From the NCBI GenBank assembly GCA_023247255.1, contig JAHFGV010000008.1, positions 1 to 48,202 on the forward strand: a stretch of 48,202 nucleotides of DNA. Direction: 5' to 3'. This document shows, in pieces, positions 14,901 to 40,830 of this stretch. Below the pieces are notes generated by a model. It worked only from the letters and a program-made list of their open reading frames with translations, did no database searches and was not told the DNA's origin. How positions within the stretch are numbered: position 1 is the first letter of the stretch; each line of letters starts with the position of its first letter. The stretch comes from Candidatus Omnitrophota bacterium. GTDB taxonomy: Bacteria > Omnitrophota > Gorgyraeia > Aquiviventales > Aquiviventaceae. A program made the translations under genes and the position numbers.

Positions 14901-15169
14901 TGTTTGAGAAAACCCCGCATCAGGAAGTGCATCCGGAGCTGTCCAGTAGCCTGACCGAGCGTTTCAGTTCATCAGCAGAAACACCGATAGAAGTTCGATC
15001 GGGGCCCAGGGCTGAGGGCTCTGGGCAACTGCCTCGAGCCCCGAGCCTAGAGCCTAGAGCCAAACAACGATCTGTCGTTGTAGGACAGCCTTCCGGACAC
15101 AAAGCGGGGCGCAACGATCCCTGTCCCTGCGGCAGCGGCCTGAAATACAAGAAGTGCCATGGCAAGTAA
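11969..15169 (+). CDS. secA: preprotein translocase ATPase SecA
   Basis: SecA drives post-translational export through SecYEG. Seen: Walker A ATGEGKT (about 137-143), HIVTVNDYLARRD, the DEVDSILVDEARTPL block, the MTGTAATEAQEF segment, ATNMAGRGTDILLGGN and LRGRSGRQGDPGSSRF of the second nucleotide-binding fold, the wing and scaffold domains, and a C-terminal zinc site CPCGSGLKYKKCH. At 1066 residues it is long (E. coli 901). One insertion of about 30 residues follows VIQGADPVERRAG and is known from other phyla. A second, of about 85 residues (roughly 516-600), lies between SEHLSRLLK and HNVLNAKYHEQEA. The linker before the zinc site is partly encoded by a heptad repeat (15001-15062). Confidence 0.97.
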   Translation: MVNWLLQKFIGTYHERTCKRLWPIVERINQLEPQMRTLTDEQLRAKTKDFRTRLTLDMQAARFSDPSTPEWYDLSMDERLVVRQHRRQYQQRLLDAILPETFAVVREVARRQLSMRHFDVQLLGGIILHEGKIAEMATGEGKTLVATLAAYLNSLTGRGVHIVTVNDYLARRDARWMGPIYHALGLSVGVIQGADPVERRAGDESLSFIYDPAWTSTNERFIYLRTVTRRESYAADITYGQNNEFGFDYLRDNMRFRKDDLSQREFHYAIVDEVDSILVDEARTPLIISGPAEESTDLYHRLDKVVDRLEKGACFEVDEKAQTVSLTEEGIKQVEQLLGIGNLYDETHMRLVHHVHQALRAHELFRSDVDYVVKDGEIIIVDEFTGRLMPGRRWSDGLHQAIEAKENVHIRQENQTLAAVTFQNYFRMYEKLAGMTGTAATEAQEFNEIYKLDVVSVPTNRSLIRTNYPDVVYKTEAEKFISVVEEIVELHRAGRPVLIGTISIDKSEHLSRLLKEPGPFYKRLGMLCQWALEELKKTQAVDEGLRQDLSQALSRPAMLTQSQVEDLLRRVDAVVPKSLLVFRMEQILRLVQTITTIKAGLAHNVLNAKYHEQEAGIVAQAGRKAAVTIATNMAGRGTDILLGGNPQALADDEIRQQESRRQAPLEAFEKQKIVEHFQVLCQKEHEEVVAVGGLHVLGTERHEARRIDNQLRGRSGRQGDPGSSRFYLSFEDDLMRIFGSDRLSRLMEFKWFQWEEGLPIEHAMVSRAIETSQRRVEGHNFDIRKQLLEYDNTMNRQREVIYEQRRRILEGVDMQGLITDIIREIAEELLESFASKTLRPDAWDLEGLRQAMARQFGLSIAELKSDEDRQMLSERLADTLQHAYEAKRQQLGPEVMAQHERYILLSIIDAKWKDHLYMMDTLREGIHLRAYGQRDPVVEYQREAYTLFQDMVSAIKVESLTVLLRFQPVAEAQPLVGVFEKTPHQEVHPELSSSLTERFSSSAETPIEVRSGPRAEGSGQLPRAPSLEPRAKQRSVVVGQPSGHKAGRNDPCPCGSGLKYKKCHGK
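15001..15062 (+). repeat. heptad palindrome inside the secA tail
   Basis: Left arm GGGGCCC AGGGCTG AGGGCTC TGGGCAA, right arm CCTCGAG CCCCGAG CCTAGAG CCTAGAG (15032-15059). It is translated in frame as part of the flexible linker before the SecA zinc motif. The units belong to the same family as those at 3483-3503 and 18537-18564. Confidence 0.85.
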
Positions 15170-15440: not shown

Positions 15441-17150
15441 GTGCTTCCCATTCCTGTTCCTTTCTTCCTCGCAGTCAGTAGCGCCATCCTCCTCGTGTTG
15501 GCCTTTCCGCCTTTTAACCAATCCTGGCTGGCCTGGATCGCCTGGGTGCCTTGGATGTATGCCTTGCGTACGCTTCCACGCCGCAAGGCTTTTTGGCTTT
15601 CGTGGCTGGTGGGGTTTGTGTTTTTTCTTGGCTCGATGGCCTGGTTGATCCACCTCCAAGAATTTGGAGGGCCATTAGCGTTTGTAGGCTGGTTTGCGCT
15701 CAGCGCGTATCTGGCTCTCTACTTCGCTCTCTTCGGTCTTATCGCTGATCAGGCGTATACCCGACACCCGACACCCTTCACCCGTCACGTCTTGATCCCC
15801 TCTGCATGGGTTGCCTTGGAGTACGTCCGCAGCCACCTGCTTTCAGGATTCGGCTGGAATCTGCTTGCCTATTCCCAGACTTCCTGGACACCGCTCATTC
15901 AAATGGCGGATATTACGGGAGCCTGGGGGGTGTCGTGGGTCATCGTCTTCGTGAATGGGGTGCTGACCGAATCCATACACAGGGCTACTGGGCAAGGGGC
16001 GTGGGGCAGCAGAGCGGGGACAAGAGACAAGGGACAGGGGACAAGGGATAGGAAAGAACCGACCAACAGCGAAGAAAATCTAAAACAAGCAATCAGTGAA
16101 TGGGTAGCTGCCGTTGGTCTTGTGCTCTTAGTCCTTTGCTACGGTATATGGAGGCTTCGAAGCGTACCGGGTGGAGGGATAGTGCGCGTTGCTGTTGTGC
16201 AGGGGAACATCCCCCAAGAGCAGAAATGGCAGGAGGCTTACGTCGCAGAGATTCTTGATCGTTATGCGCGTTTGACAAAGGAAGCGGATCAGACAGCGAC
16301 GGATCTGATCGTTTGGCCGGAGACTTCAGTGCCCGGTCTGTTGGGAGCCGACGAAACAATCACTCAGCGAATGGGGGAGCTTGCCAGAGGGATTCAGCGG
16401 CCGTTGCTCGTGGGGGCTGCGATGCTAAGCTCCGTCACAATGGATGATGGCAATTTTGAACTGACCAACAGCGCCGCTTTGATGGATCCGTCAGGATCCA
16501 TTGTCGCCCGATACGATAAACAACGTCTAGTACCCTTTGGCGAGTTCATCCCGGCTGAAAAGCTATTTCCATGGCTGCGGAATATTCTGCCCCCCATCGG
16601 GGATTTCGTTGCCGGCCATGAAGCAACGGTGTTCCATTCCCATGCACAAACACTGAGTGAGGGGCAAGGGGCATGGGGCGAGGGGCGAGGGGAGACAGTC
16701 GTTCCCACACCCCCTGTCTCCCACCCCATGCCCCCTTTCAGTGTGCTCATCTGCTTCGAGGATGTCTTTCCTGAGATCGCCCGTCGGTTTGTTCGTGACG
16801 GAGCCCGGTTTCTGTTGGTCATCACCAACGACGCGTGGTTTGGCCACAGCGCAGCAGCCTTCCAGCATGCTCAGGCCTCGACCTTCAGGGCGGTTGAGTT
16901 GCGAGTTCCGGTCGCTCGCGCAGCCAACACCGGATGGTCCGGTTGCATCGATGCGCATGGACGCTGGCTGGATGCGGTTAAGGATTCGAAAGGCGATGCG
17001 TTGTTTGTGGCAGGAACCACGACCTGCGAGTTGAGTCTGCCAGTCGTCAAGAGTTTGTATCTTCAGTGGGGCGATTGGTTTGCCTGGTTGTGTCTGTTTG
17101 GTTGTCTCATCGCAGTCTGTTATAATGTTCGTTTCTTCCATGACTGTTAG
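15441..17150 (+). CDS. lnt: apolipoprotein N-acyltransferase
   Basis: Lnt adds the third acyl chain to lipoproteins in the inner membrane. The 569-residue product has about six hydrophobic segments in its first 250 residues, then a periplasmic nitrilase domain with the triad Glu294 (WPETSVP), Lys360 (RYDKQRLVPFGEF) and Cys438 (ICFEDVFP), and a last transmembrane helix. It starts with GTG. Three heptad arrays are embedded and translated: ACCCGAC units (residues 107-116), GGGGCAA/GGGACAA units (about 183-204) and a palindromic GGGGCGA array (about 407-433), the last only a few residues before the catalytic cysteine. Normal Lnt is about 510, so these inserts explain the extra length. All key residues are intact. 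It supplies mature lipoproteins to Lol genes downstream. Confidence 0.95.
   Translation: MLPIPVPFFLAVSSAILLVLAFPPFNQSWLAWIAWVPWMYALRTLPRRKAFWLSWLVGFVFFLGSMAWLIHLQEFGGPLAFVGWFALSAYLALYFALFGLIADQAYTRHPTPFTRHVLIPSAWVALEYVRSHLLSGFGWNLLAYSQTSWTPLIQMADITGAWGVSWVIVFVNGVLTESIHRATGQGAWGSRAGTRDKGQGTRDRKEPTNSEENLKQAISEWVAAVGLVLLVLCYGIWRLRSVPGGGIVRVAVVQGNIPQEQKWQEAYVAEILDRYARLTKEADQTATDLIVWPETSVPGLLGADETITQRMGELARGIQRPLLVGAAMLSSVTMDDGNFELTNSAALMDPSGSIVARYDKQRLVPFGEFIPAEKLFPWLRNILPPIGDFVAGHEATVFHSHAQTLSEGQGAWGEGRGETVVPTPPVSHPMPPFSVLICFEDVFPEIARRFVRDGARFLLVITNDAWFGHSAAAFQHAQASTFRAVELRVPVARAANTGWSGCIDAHGRWLDAVKDSKGDALFVAGTTTCELSLPVVKSLYLQWGDWFAWLCLFGCLIAVCYNVRFFHDC
15759..15786 (+). repeat. ACCCGAC heptads inside lnt
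   Basis: Four tandem units ACCCGAC, ACCCGAC, ACCCTTC, ACCCGTC are translated as TRHPTPFTRH in a loop between membrane segments of Lnt. Confidence 0.85.
15989..16051 (+). repeat. nine heptads inside lnt
   Basis: Nine consecutive 7-bp units of GGGGCNN then GGGACAA type (63 bp, 21 codons) are translated in frame as a Gly/Arg/Asp-rich stretch between the last N-terminal membrane segments of Lnt. Confidence 0.88.
16661..16738 (+). repeat. heptad palindrome inside lnt near the catalytic cysteine
   Basis: Left arm GGGGCAA GGGGCAT GGGGCGA GGGGCGA GGGGAGA (16661-16695), right arm five complementary units such as CCCACAC and CCCATGC (16704-16738). The array (78 bp, 26 codons) is in frame and ends four codons before the segment leading to ICFED. 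Confidence 0.88.
17098..17126 (+). promoter_or_regulatory. possible lysS promoter within the lnt 3' end
   Basis: TTGGTT (17098-17103), 17-base spacer, perfect TATAAT (17121-17126). It would start transcription about 70 bases before lysS. Confidence 0.5.
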
Positions 17151-17173
17151 AAATTTTGCATAGCAAAATTTCT
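17149..17173. repeat. hairpin overlapping the lnt stop codon
   Basis: A perfect 11-bp stem AGAAATTTTGC/GCAAAATTTCT with a 3-base loop begins within the lnt TAG stop. A related unit AAATTTCGCGGAGCGTAATTT follows up to the lysS start. No T-run follows. Confidence 0.75.
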
Positions 17174-17202
17174 AGTAATAAATTTCGCGGAGCGTAATTT
17201 CT

Positions 17203-18726
17203 ATGGAACGGCAAGAACAGTCTGAGATTCGCTATGAAAAGCTGCAAGCCCTCAAGCGGCAGAATATCTACCCTTATGGCGCAGCCTTTCCTAAGGCCGA
17301 ATCGCTTCAACAGCTCGTGGCCCATTTTTCCGAAGGGCTCTCGGTCACCACGGCCGGTCGGTTGAGCGCCAAGCGGGGACATGGGGGACTTTCCTTTGCG
17401 GATCTGCGGGATGCAAGCGGGAAAATTCAGATCTGCCTGAAACAGGAGCGTGTCGGAGCGGAGCCCTACCAGTTCTTTGAGAATCTGGATCTGGGAGATT
17501 TCGTAGGCGTCGAAGGCGCTCTCTTTAAGACGAAGACCGAAGAGATCACCATTCAGGTGTCTCGGCTTACCTTGCTCGCCAAGGCGTTGCGTCCGCTGCC
17601 GGAGAAATGGCATGGGCTCAAGGACGTGGAAGTCCGCTATCGCAGGCGATACCTGGATTTCATCGCCAATGAGCCGGTCCGTCGGGTCTTTCTGCAGAGA
17701 AGCCGCCTGCTTTCCTGTTTGCGCGCGAGTCTTGAGCGTCATGGGTTCTTGGAGGTCGAGACCCCGATGATGCACCCCATCCCCGGTGGGGCAGCCGGTG
17801 AGCCTTTCGTCACGCACCACAACGCGCTGGACGTCGAACTCTATTTGCGCCTGGCACCGGAGTTGTATCTGAAGCAACTTTTGGTCGCAGGTCTTGAGCG
17901 CATCTACGAGTTAAACCGTTCCTTTCGCAACGAAGGCCTATCGACGCAGCACAACCCCGAGTTCACCATGTTGGAGGTCTATGCGGCTTACCAGGATTGC
18001 GCTTCCATGATGAACCTGGTTCAGGAGCTGATCTGCGACGCAGCCCGGAATCTGCTCGGAAGCCTTCAATGGGAATACCAAGGCAAGATGATTGATCTGA
18101 CTCCTCCCTGGGATCGGGTTTCATTCGCTCAGACGATGGCCGATATGGGCTTGACTCCACAGACTCCTCTTGAATCCATGCAGCAGGCTCTGCAGAAAAA
18201 GGGCGTCCAGGTCAAAGGTCTGTCGCGTTCGCAAATGGTCCGACTCATCGAGCAACTCTTTGAGCCCAAGGCCAAGTCTAAACCCTTGTTTGTCACCGAC
18301 TATTGGACGGAGATTTCGCCTCTGGCAAAGAGCAAGCCGGACGATTTTTCTATTGCCGATCGCTTTGAGCTTTTCATCGGCGGAATGGAAGTCGCAAACG
18401 CCTACTCTGAGTTGAATGATCCGATCGAACAGCGTCGTCGGTTTGAAGCTCAACTGCAAGAGCGTTCAGGGTTGGGGGCTGAGGGCTGTTTTGAAAAACG
18501 CTCTGGACTCAGGGTTGGGGGCTGTAGGCCTCCCAGAACCCCGAGCCCCGAGCCCCGAGCCAAGATGATTGATGAGGGATTTGTGGAAGCCCTCGAATAC
18601 GGCATGCCGCCGGCCGGGGGTCTAGGCGTTGGAGTGGATCGCCTCGCGATGCTGTTACTCAACCAGCCCTCGATCAAGGATGTAATCCTGTTTCCGCTGC
18701 TAAAGCCGGAAAGTCGCCACACGTGA
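17203..18726 (+). CDS. lysS: lysyl-tRNA synthetase, class II
   Basis: LysRS charges tRNA-Lys. The 507-residue product shows the N-terminal OB-fold anticodon-binding domain (about 55-150), then class II motif 1 (LEVETPMMHPIPGGAAGEPF), motif 2 (FRNEGLSTQHNPEFTMLEVY) and motif 3 (GGLGVGVDRLAMLLL). Glycine-rich EVANAYSELNDP is also intact. Residues 422-454 are encoded by a 99-bp heptad palindrome that replaces the usual short stretch between QRRRFEAQLQ and MIDEGFVEALEYGMPP, right before the ATP-binding motif 3 region. As the only LysRS seen and apparently intact otherwise, it presumably tolerates the insert as a surface loop. Confidence 0.96.
   Translation: MERQEQSEIRYEKLQALKRQNIYPYGAAFPKAESLQQLVAHFSEGLSVTTAGRLSAKRGHGGLSFADLRDASGKIQICLKQERVGAEPYQFFENLDLGDFVGVEGALFKTKTEEITIQVSRLTLLAKALRPLPEKWHGLKDVEVRYRRRYLDFIANEPVRRVFLQRSRLLSCLRASLERHGFLEVETPMMHPIPGGAAGEPFVTHHNALDVELYLRLAPELYLKQLLVAGLERIYELNRSFRNEGLSTQHNPEFTMLEVYAAYQDCASMMNLVQELICDAARNLLGSLQWEYQGKMIDLTPPWDRVSFAQTMADMGLTPQTPLESMQQALQKKGVQVKGLSRSQMVRLIEQLFEPKAKSKPLFVTDYWTEISPLAKSKPDDFSIADRFELFIGGMEVANAYSELNDPIEQRRRFEAQLQERSGLGAEGCFEKRSGLRVGGCRPPRTPSPEPRAKMIDEGFVEALEYGMPPAGGLGVGVDRLAMLLLNQPSIKDVILFPLLKPESRHT
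18466..18564 (+). repeat. 99-bp heptad palindrome inside lysS
   Basis: Units TCAGGGT TGGGGGC TGAGGGC (18466-18486), a second similar run TCAGGGT TGGGGGC TGTAGGC (18509-18529), then AACCCCG AGCCCCG AGCCCCG AGCCAAG (18537-18564). The length is 33 codons and the frame is kept. Confidence 0.9.
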
Positions 18727-22179: not shown

Positions 22180-22415
22180 ACTGGGCTTTTGCAAAAATAG
22201 CCAACGCGTTGACCGAGTGTTGTGTCCTGTCCTAAGAGAAGTAATGAGGATTGTGTCATGTTTTATGAGTCATGTGTCATGAGAAAGCAGAAAATAAACA
22301 GGCATCTCAGGCATGGCCAAAGGGGCTCTTTTGCTTTCCATGACTCATGACACATGAAACATGACACAGACGTGAGCGCTGCCACTAATCTCGATGCATT
22401 TTGCAGAACCTCAGT
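22180..22415. mobile_element. MITE-like element with TTTTGCAAAA terminal repeats, complete copy
   Basis: Left end ACTGGGCTTTTGCAAAA (22180-22196), right end TTTTGCAGAACCTCAGT (22399-22415), imperfect inverted copies of each other. Between them lie AAGAGAAGTAATGAGGATTG, TCATGNN heptads, a central stem and the complementary heptads (CATGACT CATGACA CATGAAA CATGACA). No open frame of note. It fills most of the gap between ilvE and mcsA. Confidence 0.8.
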
Positions 22416-29435: not shown

Positions 29436-29678
29436 ACTGGGCTTTTGCAAAAATAACCAACGCATTGACCGAGTGTTGTGTCCTATTCCAAGAGAAGTAA
29501 TGAGGACTGTGTCATGTTTCATGTGTCATGAGTCATGGAAAGCAAAAGGCGTACTTTGGCCGTGCTTGAGATGCCTGTTTATTTTCCGTTTTTTCATGAC
29601 TCATGACACATGAAACATGACTCATGAAACAGACGTGAGCGCTGCCACTAACCTCGATGCATTTTGCAAAACCTCAGT
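29436..29678. mobile_element. MITE-like element with TTTTGCAAAA terminal repeats, complete copy
   Basis: Left end ACTGGGCTTTTGCAAAA (29436-29452), right end TTTTGCAAAACCTCAGT (29662-29678). Same interior order as the copy at 22180-22415, in the same orientation: AAGAGAAGTAATGAGGACTG, TCATGTT TCATGTG TCATGAG TCATGGA, central part, then complementary heptads. It occupies the mlaD-radA gap. Confidence 0.85.
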
Positions 29679-32159: not shown

Positions 32160-32419
32160 GACTCGTATTGTGTCATGTTCCAAGATCTAGTACTCACGTT
32201 TGTGTCATGTTTCTAAGATTCAGCACTCACGTCTGTTTCATGAGTCATGTGTTGTGTGTCATGAAAGACTGTTTCATGTTTTATGTGTCATGAGTTATGG
32301 AAAGCAAAAGAGCCCCTTTGGCTATGCTTGAGATACTTGTTTATTTTCTGCTTTTTCATGACACATAACGCATGGAACATGACACAATCCTCATTACTTC
32401 TCTTGGAACATGACACAAG
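32160..32419. mobile_element. MITE-like element, inverted and rearranged, ends lost
   Basis: TCATGNN heptads, the AAAGCAAAAGAGCCCCTTTGG stem sequence, and a block CCTCATTACTTCTCTTGGAA that is the reverse complement of the left block in other copies, so this copy lies in opposite orientation. It is extended by an extra CACTCACGTCTG/TGTGTCATGTT duplication on its left. Terminal repeats are not found. It fills the gap before ispD. Confidence 0.7.
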
Positions 32420-37703: not shown

Positions 37704-37999
37704 CCAACGCGTCGACCGAGTGTTGTGTCCTATTCCAAGAGAAGTAAGGAGGATTGTGTCATGTTTCATGAGTCATGTGTCATGAAAGGCTGTTTCATGT
37801 GTTATGTGTCATGAGTCATGGAAAGAAAAAGGAGCACTTTGGCCATGCCTGATATGCCTGTTTATTTTCTGCTTTTTCATGACACATAACACATGACTCA
37901 TGACACAGACGTGAGTGCTGCATTAGAACCATAATCCACTTTCTTCTTGGCCCTTGGCCACTTGGCCACTAATCTCGATGCATTTTGCAAAACCTCAGT
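37683..37999. mobile_element. MITE-like element with TTTTGCAAAA terminal repeats, long copy
   Basis: Left end ACTGGGCTTTTGCAAAA (37683-37699) lies inside the holB 3' end; right end TTTTGCAAAACCTCAGT (37983-37999). The interior is as in the other copies, plus an extra AACCATAATCCACTTTCTTC and TTGGCCACTTGGCCAC segment shared with the copy before lnt. This fills the gap before metG with no gene inside. Confidence 0.85.
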
Positions 38000-40712: not shown

Positions 40713-40830
40713 TAGGATGCTGAAAAACTCGTCTTGGCTCTAGGCTGAGATAATTTTCGATTGTAGATTCTCGATTGTCGATTGGAAAACACAACAAATC
40801 GACAATCGAAGATTGACAATCGACAATTCG
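40713..40830. repeat. CTGAAAAACCCTCA-type element followed by GATTGTC/CAATCGA palindrome
   Basis: 40713-40745 is an inverted, diverged copy of the composite element before murJ (GGATGCTGAAAAACTC then CTCTAGGCTGAG). 40759-40830 is the third copy of the heptad palindrome: GATTGTA GATTCTC GATTGTC, then CAATCGA AGATTGA CAATCGA CAATTCG. The rest up to 40926 holds no gene. Confidence 0.8.

Follow-up and report, generated by a model that had tools for sequence, protein, structure and literature searches.

Why would a gene for apolipoprotein N-acyltransferase carry, at three separate places, tandem units of seven bases and still encode a protein whose catalytic residues are all in position? The gene lies in the window (the whole stretch of DNA analysed here, 48,202 nucleotides), which is contig C20 of a Candidatus Omnitrophota genome of 2.18 Mb and 91% completeness. 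The answer that we favour, with a probability of roughly 0.6, is that the sites represent heptad hairpin elements, that is, dispersing palindromes whose arms are homogenised in 7-bp steps.

The gene, lnt, occupies positions 15441-17150 of the forward strand. Its product of 569 residues was identified from Pfam domains (LNT_N at 14-173, CN_hydrolase at 249-510), from PDB sequence matches and from a predicted fold that matches the solved Lnt structures of E. coli and P. aeruginosa; by Lnt the nearest named relatives are groundwater Candidatus Omnitrophota MAGs. A sequence-only reading of this DNA had held that the catalytic residues are intact, and indeed E294, K360 and C438 are all present, with no variation at E294 and C438 and at least 90% conservation of K360 across 17 aligned sequences, while the motif VLICFED begins at residue 435 and thereby places the cysteine at 438, just as had been proposed. 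According to an AlphaFold model, also built on a 17-sequence alignment (mean pLDDT 83, pTM 0.87), segments of at least three residues with pLDDT below 50 are confined to 187-190, 192-205 and 402-427, i.e. to sites 2 and 3 described below, and this prediction agrees with the suggestion that the repeats are tolerated as loops.

All three of the arrays first noticed in lnt are real, and heptads can be read at each of them. Site 1 (15759-15786 on the forward strand, approximately residues 107-116; the original coordinates were exact) is a single arm of four ACCCGAC-type heptads, ACCCGAC ACCCGAC ACCCTTC ACCCGTC, which in the AlphaFold model makes a short turn joining two predicted helices. Site 2 (15990-16052, same strand, approximately residues 184-204) consists of nine G-rich heptads in one register: GGGCAAG GGGCGTG GGGCAGC AGAGCGG GGACAAG AGACAAG GGACAGG GGACAAG GGATAGG. 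The number of units had been given correctly and their position (15989-16051) one base too early; TRF scores only 16017-16048 as an array. This site corresponds to the linker from the N-terminal to the nitrilase domain, which is short in most relatives. Neither site 1 nor site 2 has an inverted partner above chance (12 of 21 matches), and therefore site 3 is the sole palindrome of the three. It is a 74-bp hairpin of GGGGCNN heptads (16661-16734, forward strand, approximately residues 407-432), a member of a dispersed family from whose consensus its bounds were taken, and Cys438 follows it by six residues. The palindrome had been recognised before as 78 bp long; the best estimate is 74 bp, and 78 is in any case not a multiple of seven. 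An outer extension, in which ACACTGA (16650-16656) pairs with TCAGTGT (16739-16745), enlarges the inverted region to approximately 16650-16745 on the forward strand; it is the longest such extension among 21 family copies, and its TCAGTGT word falls within the conserved FSV codons.

Period-7 arrays are abundant in this genome. A sample of 405 kb, window included, contains 87 of them, as compared with 0-3 arrays for other periods that are not multiples of seven and none in a Markov control, and by extrapolation the whole genome would hold about 470. In the window itself period-7 runs are the sole short period in excess and are absent from Markov-simulated sequence; the longest array there, a perfect TCTGCTG repeated 6.4 times at 1561-1614, is one-armed and lies near the start of an LptE gene. 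The density per 100 kb is 21 in this genome and 25 in a sample of its taxonomic family (biased towards Lnt loci), against 8 in other Omnitrophota, 4 in a PVC sample and 0 in an Elusimicrobia sample. An inverted partner within 140 bp, at 17 or more of 21 matches, accompanies 48 of the 87 arrays versus 3 of 87 when foreign flanks are substituted, so the usual form is arm-loop-arm with four to five heptads per arm. Ordinary low-complexity coding of loops is ruled out, since a period of 7 nt is not a multiple of three and the arms are complementary in DNA; an assembly artefact is unlikely too, as in independent public MAGs the corresponding loops, again with the frame kept, contain arrays of this kind made of other words.

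Heptameric repeats as such are not new, the STRRs of cyanobacteria being heptameric simple sequence repeats. Heptanucleotides are a recognised abundant class of bacterial repeats, the top long class of simple sequence repeats in most genomes surveyed, for which slippage has been proposed as the cause (Mrazek 2007, as cited in PMC4679880); described words include GGGAATC in Xanthomonas and GGGGA(C/T)T in Nostoc (PMC4692102), and TAACTGA in Beggiatoaceae (PMC4679880). On this background it could be argued that the arrays arose in place by 7-nt replication slippage and that quasi-palindrome template switching made the second arm, a scheme that we consider improbable without being able to dismiss it. 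The excess of tandem seven-base units over chance, typical for heptameric simple sequence repeats, is certainly seen here, and the complementarity of the outer arm of site 3 to the host's own FSV codons is what template switching would produce; besides, the pheT elements of two genomes of one genus, G026 and G020, are common to both and differ by a 21-bp deletion of exactly three heptads. Slippage would however be expected to leave decaying, open-ended lengths, which were not seen: under maximal-segment scoring the length is 4.0-4.9 units for 34 of this genome's 46 arrays and for 59 of the 85 scored in relatives, and few arrays have five or more. Nor would independent slippage events place a deviant word at one fixed position across the GGGGC loci.

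That irregularity is a sign of copying in the family to which site 3 belongs. When 91 bases of the window were searched against the taxonomic family, 12 of the 27 genomes gave matches, this genome contributing 20 and G016 another 14; over a length of some 74 bp most full-length matches have an identity of 72-85%, and they lie at unrelated loci, so that the dispersal of this family is a matter of observation. In 17 of 21 aligned copies one fixed position of the 3' arm is taken by a deviant word, GTCTC, and because the copies have this irregularity in common, it points to their descent, judged on the sequences, from one element by copying and not to independent slippage. The copies occur in both orientations and lie in or beside pheT, RibD-like genes, a TsaD-like gene and a DHO_dh gene, among others; except for DHO_dh and the genes of the window itself, these names were read from translations. 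With strict filters, a covariance model found the GGGGC family in only 5 other genomes among 145 sampled across the phylum. No motif common to the flanks of the 21 copies is evident, and their outward complementarity does not exceed that of the control.

The same loops in relatives were compared by aligning Lnt, LysS and PheT of the family genomes and reading the loop DNA, the words being taken by hand. At site 1 of Lnt, 14 of the loops read are occupied, no two of them having the same first word (14 in all), and 8 are free; at site 3 the corresponding figures for occupied loops, different first words and free loops are 14, 12 and 8, in the LysS loop 9, 8 and 5, and in the PheT loop 14, 12 and 6. 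Site 3 is built of GGGGC in G000, G016, G017 and G014, of GAGTGNC in G026, of GGAATGC in G024 and G021b, of GGTGAGA in G021a, of GGGTTCC in G020, of GGTTCAA in G019 and of GACCCGC/GAGTCTC in G023, and no array is found there in G002, G005, G006, G007, G010, G011, G012 and G015. Its boundaries are nearly constant, a few codons past TVF and one to two codons ahead of FSV. Turnover can be seen even within a genus: in one of them, with Lnt 79% identical, site 3 is filled in G024 and empty in G002, while G026 and G020, which have their pheT element in common, differ in the words of both site 1 and site 3. The Lnt tree resolves little of the branching (4 of 19 inner branches starred) and was used for sister pairs only. 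Within a genome the words of different sites resemble each other more closely than those of these sites do from one genome to another (mean best match 5.09 of 7 versus 4.47 when permuted; 0 of 5000 permutations). It had been stated at the outset that the notion of inserts would fall if relatives conserved the same residues as ordinary loops, and that array-free orthologues should be sought by alignment; such orthologues do exist, other relatives have different heptad arrays at the same place, and the residues are not kept. As far as comparison of sequences can establish it, the relatives thus confirm insertion at the Lnt, LysS and PheT loops, where filled and empty sites and the turnover of words are directly observed. 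In two cases, PheT of G017 (L235; GACAAGC with CACTCCG) and site 3 of G001 (L093; AAGTCAG with GCATTCC), the arms are made of non-complementary words, an indication that one arm can be exchanged without the other.

A second explanation, which seems to us doubtful on present evidence, is that a RAYT/Y1 (HUH) transposase recognises the hairpins and moves them as REP-like elements. In its favour, the hairpins have regularly placed mismatches, nine Y1_Tnp matches are found in this genome and 30 of 40 genomes searched have a match. Yet G015, G017, G019, G023 and G024 carry elements without any match to PF01797 (these genomes are 73-93% complete); the correlation with RAYT genes is not supportive, with the reservation that the five genomes are incomplete; and on contig C19 (L130) no array lies within 2 kb of the two Y1 genes located there. 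No target-site duplication was evident in the 21 GGGGC copies, by eye and by the outward-complementarity test and without strain-level empty sites, and no mobilising enzyme or transposase has been identified for the elements. A selected function, in which a G-quadruplex or mRNA hairpin tunes translation or folding of the host protein, is very improbable, because, even though GGGGCNN words fit the quadruplex pattern and folding into quadruplexes in vitro is on record for the G-rich heptamers of Xanthomonas and Nostoc (PMC4692102), only the GGGGC words are capable by sequence, most others (GGTTCAA, GAGTGNC, GGAATGC, GACAAGC) lack the needed G-runs, several relatives have no array at these sites, and the words change even between members of one genus.

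On a rough ORF map, 73% of random positions but only 23 of the 87 arrays are located well inside ORFs, and 11% of random positions but 49 arrays between them; a stop in any frame occurs in 31% of random heptads and in only 5 of the 89 words on the coding strand. Hence the arrays are depleted in genes and the surviving coding ones are mostly stop-free. The invasion of coding DNA, which had been thought frequent, is so in absolute number, and relative to intergenic DNA it is strongly depleted. In the genes examined that carry elements the frame is kept and the elements lie in variable loops, and tolerance by the proteins is supported by structure prediction together with these intact frames. The adjacent lysS has a segment with a GGGGCTG heptad hairpin (18451-18570, forward strand, approximately residues 417-456), for which most relatives have no array or different words; directly between lnt and lysS, at 17148-17202, there is an AT-rich palindrome (GAAATTTTGCATAGCAAAATTTC) that is not heptad-built. 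A single-arm AGCCTAG/CCCCGAG array is found near the C-terminus of secA (15030-15064, forward strand, approximately residues 1021-1032), and besides SecA, arrays are present in this genome in ValRS, CarA, CarB, a radical-SAM/TRAM protein and a HemD-HemE fusion. The valyl-tRNA synthetase (L120 8395-11268, reverse strand) has four arrays at three places, with an inverted pair at residues 209-235. In L125 (903-2996, reverse strand) HemD (HEM4) and HemE (URO-D) form one ORF with an AATCGAC array in the joining stretch, approximately residues 311-325, and this array may have fused the two genes.

We propose the following sequence of events for the heptad hairpin elements. An element would be a palindrome of about 75 bp with arms of four to five tandem words, with one-armed relatives of about 30 bp; we infer that it could be copied by hairpin transposition or a similar copy-and-paste route, that purifying selection may leave only copies located in loops, of lengths that are multiples of three and with stop-free words, and that the words within an arm would be homogenised by 7-bp slippage or conversion, a process in which every genome would come to have a word dialect of its own. 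Transfer of the element, homogenisation of its arms and its neutrality for the host are all inferences. Seven being coprime to three, a stop-free array gives one and the same cycle of seven residues in all three frames of a strand (this is arithmetic and not a measurement), and so coding insertion should be easier to survive. Several facts fit this account poorly: neither a transposase, nor a target-site duplication, nor a common motif in the flanks was identified, sites 1 and 2 have no second arm, and simple hairpin copying does not explain the elements with two unrelated words. Common descent of all words from one element was not shown, as the words differ too much between families. We would only tentatively go further and define the class by architecture instead of sequence, as two arms of four to five heptads at fixed host loops, the word of which is repeatedly rewritten by a lineage-specific activity, one that would write or homogenise DNA in seven-base steps, with dialects characteristic of genera.

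Among known systems the Rickettsia palindromic elements, with which the three sites had been compared from the beginning, are among the closest. These are about 150 bp long, have family consensus sequences, encode a conserved peptide each and are already known as in-frame palindromes in Rickettsia coding genes (Ogata 2000, 2002, as summarised in PMC10969869). Like them, the elements described here are short palindromes found at many loci, in frame in unrelated genes and tolerated by proteins; unlike them, they are about 74 bp long, have arms made of heptad arrays, contain different words in different genera at one and the same site and belong to an unrelated phylum. The in-frame palindrome is found at site 3 of lnt, in the pheT, DHO_dh and TsaD-like copies and, with other words, as hairpins in lysS, and the predicted position is compatible with the fold (low pLDDT at sites 2 and 3 only, catalytic residues conserved), whereas the length of about 150 bp is not matched. 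The comparison thus stands for site 3 as an analogy of behaviour and not of membership, and not for the one-armed sites 1 and 2. We conclude, by this analogy, that the elements may work like Rickettsia palindromic elements that are heptad-built, in word families without a common consensus, and that heptad hairpins behave like a spreading, protein-tolerated genomic parasite.

With heptameric simple sequence repeats they have in common tandem seven-base units, hundreds per genome, and some G-rich words, but the described ones are direct repeats and use one or few words in each genome, while here most arrays come as inverted pairs, many different words occur side by side, and different genera have the same loop of an essential gene invaded. 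REP/BIME and MITEs are likewise small, non-autonomous, dispersed palindromes of high copy number; to our knowledge, however, REPs are mainly extragenic and not period-7, and in the GGGGC family, itself an inverted repeat, no target duplication was seen. A search of open-licence literature brought to light no description of hairpins built of heptads, whether in coding genes or in Omnitrophota, the nearest papers being PMC4692102 and PMC4679880, so the coding, hairpin, word-switching form appears unreported, heptamer repeats themselves being known. It joins two separate curiosities, the bacterial heptamer repeats and the protein-coding palindromes, and offers a test bed for the question "why seven?", since sister genera present one loop with different words and the same architecture. 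For the conserved enzymes Lnt, LysS, PheT, ValRS, CarA/B and SecA of an uncultured phylum it means neutral-looking peptide inserts, which annotation pipelines could mistake for domains or errors.

Other dispersed heptad elements were noticed in the same sample. One is a MITE-like intergenic composite with TCATGNN/ACACATG heptad arms, a conserved spacer of about 60 bp (ATGGAAAGCAAAAGG...TTTATTTTCTGC) and nested outer modules, found in the window at 29506-29631, 37754-37909, 22336-22370 and 32270-32299, and in the 405 kb in 22 copies, which are mosaics. A second family, whose heptad arms are built of AATCGAC and whose short loop is conserved, is present in the window at 186-366 and 40753-40786 and has 16 copies in the sample.
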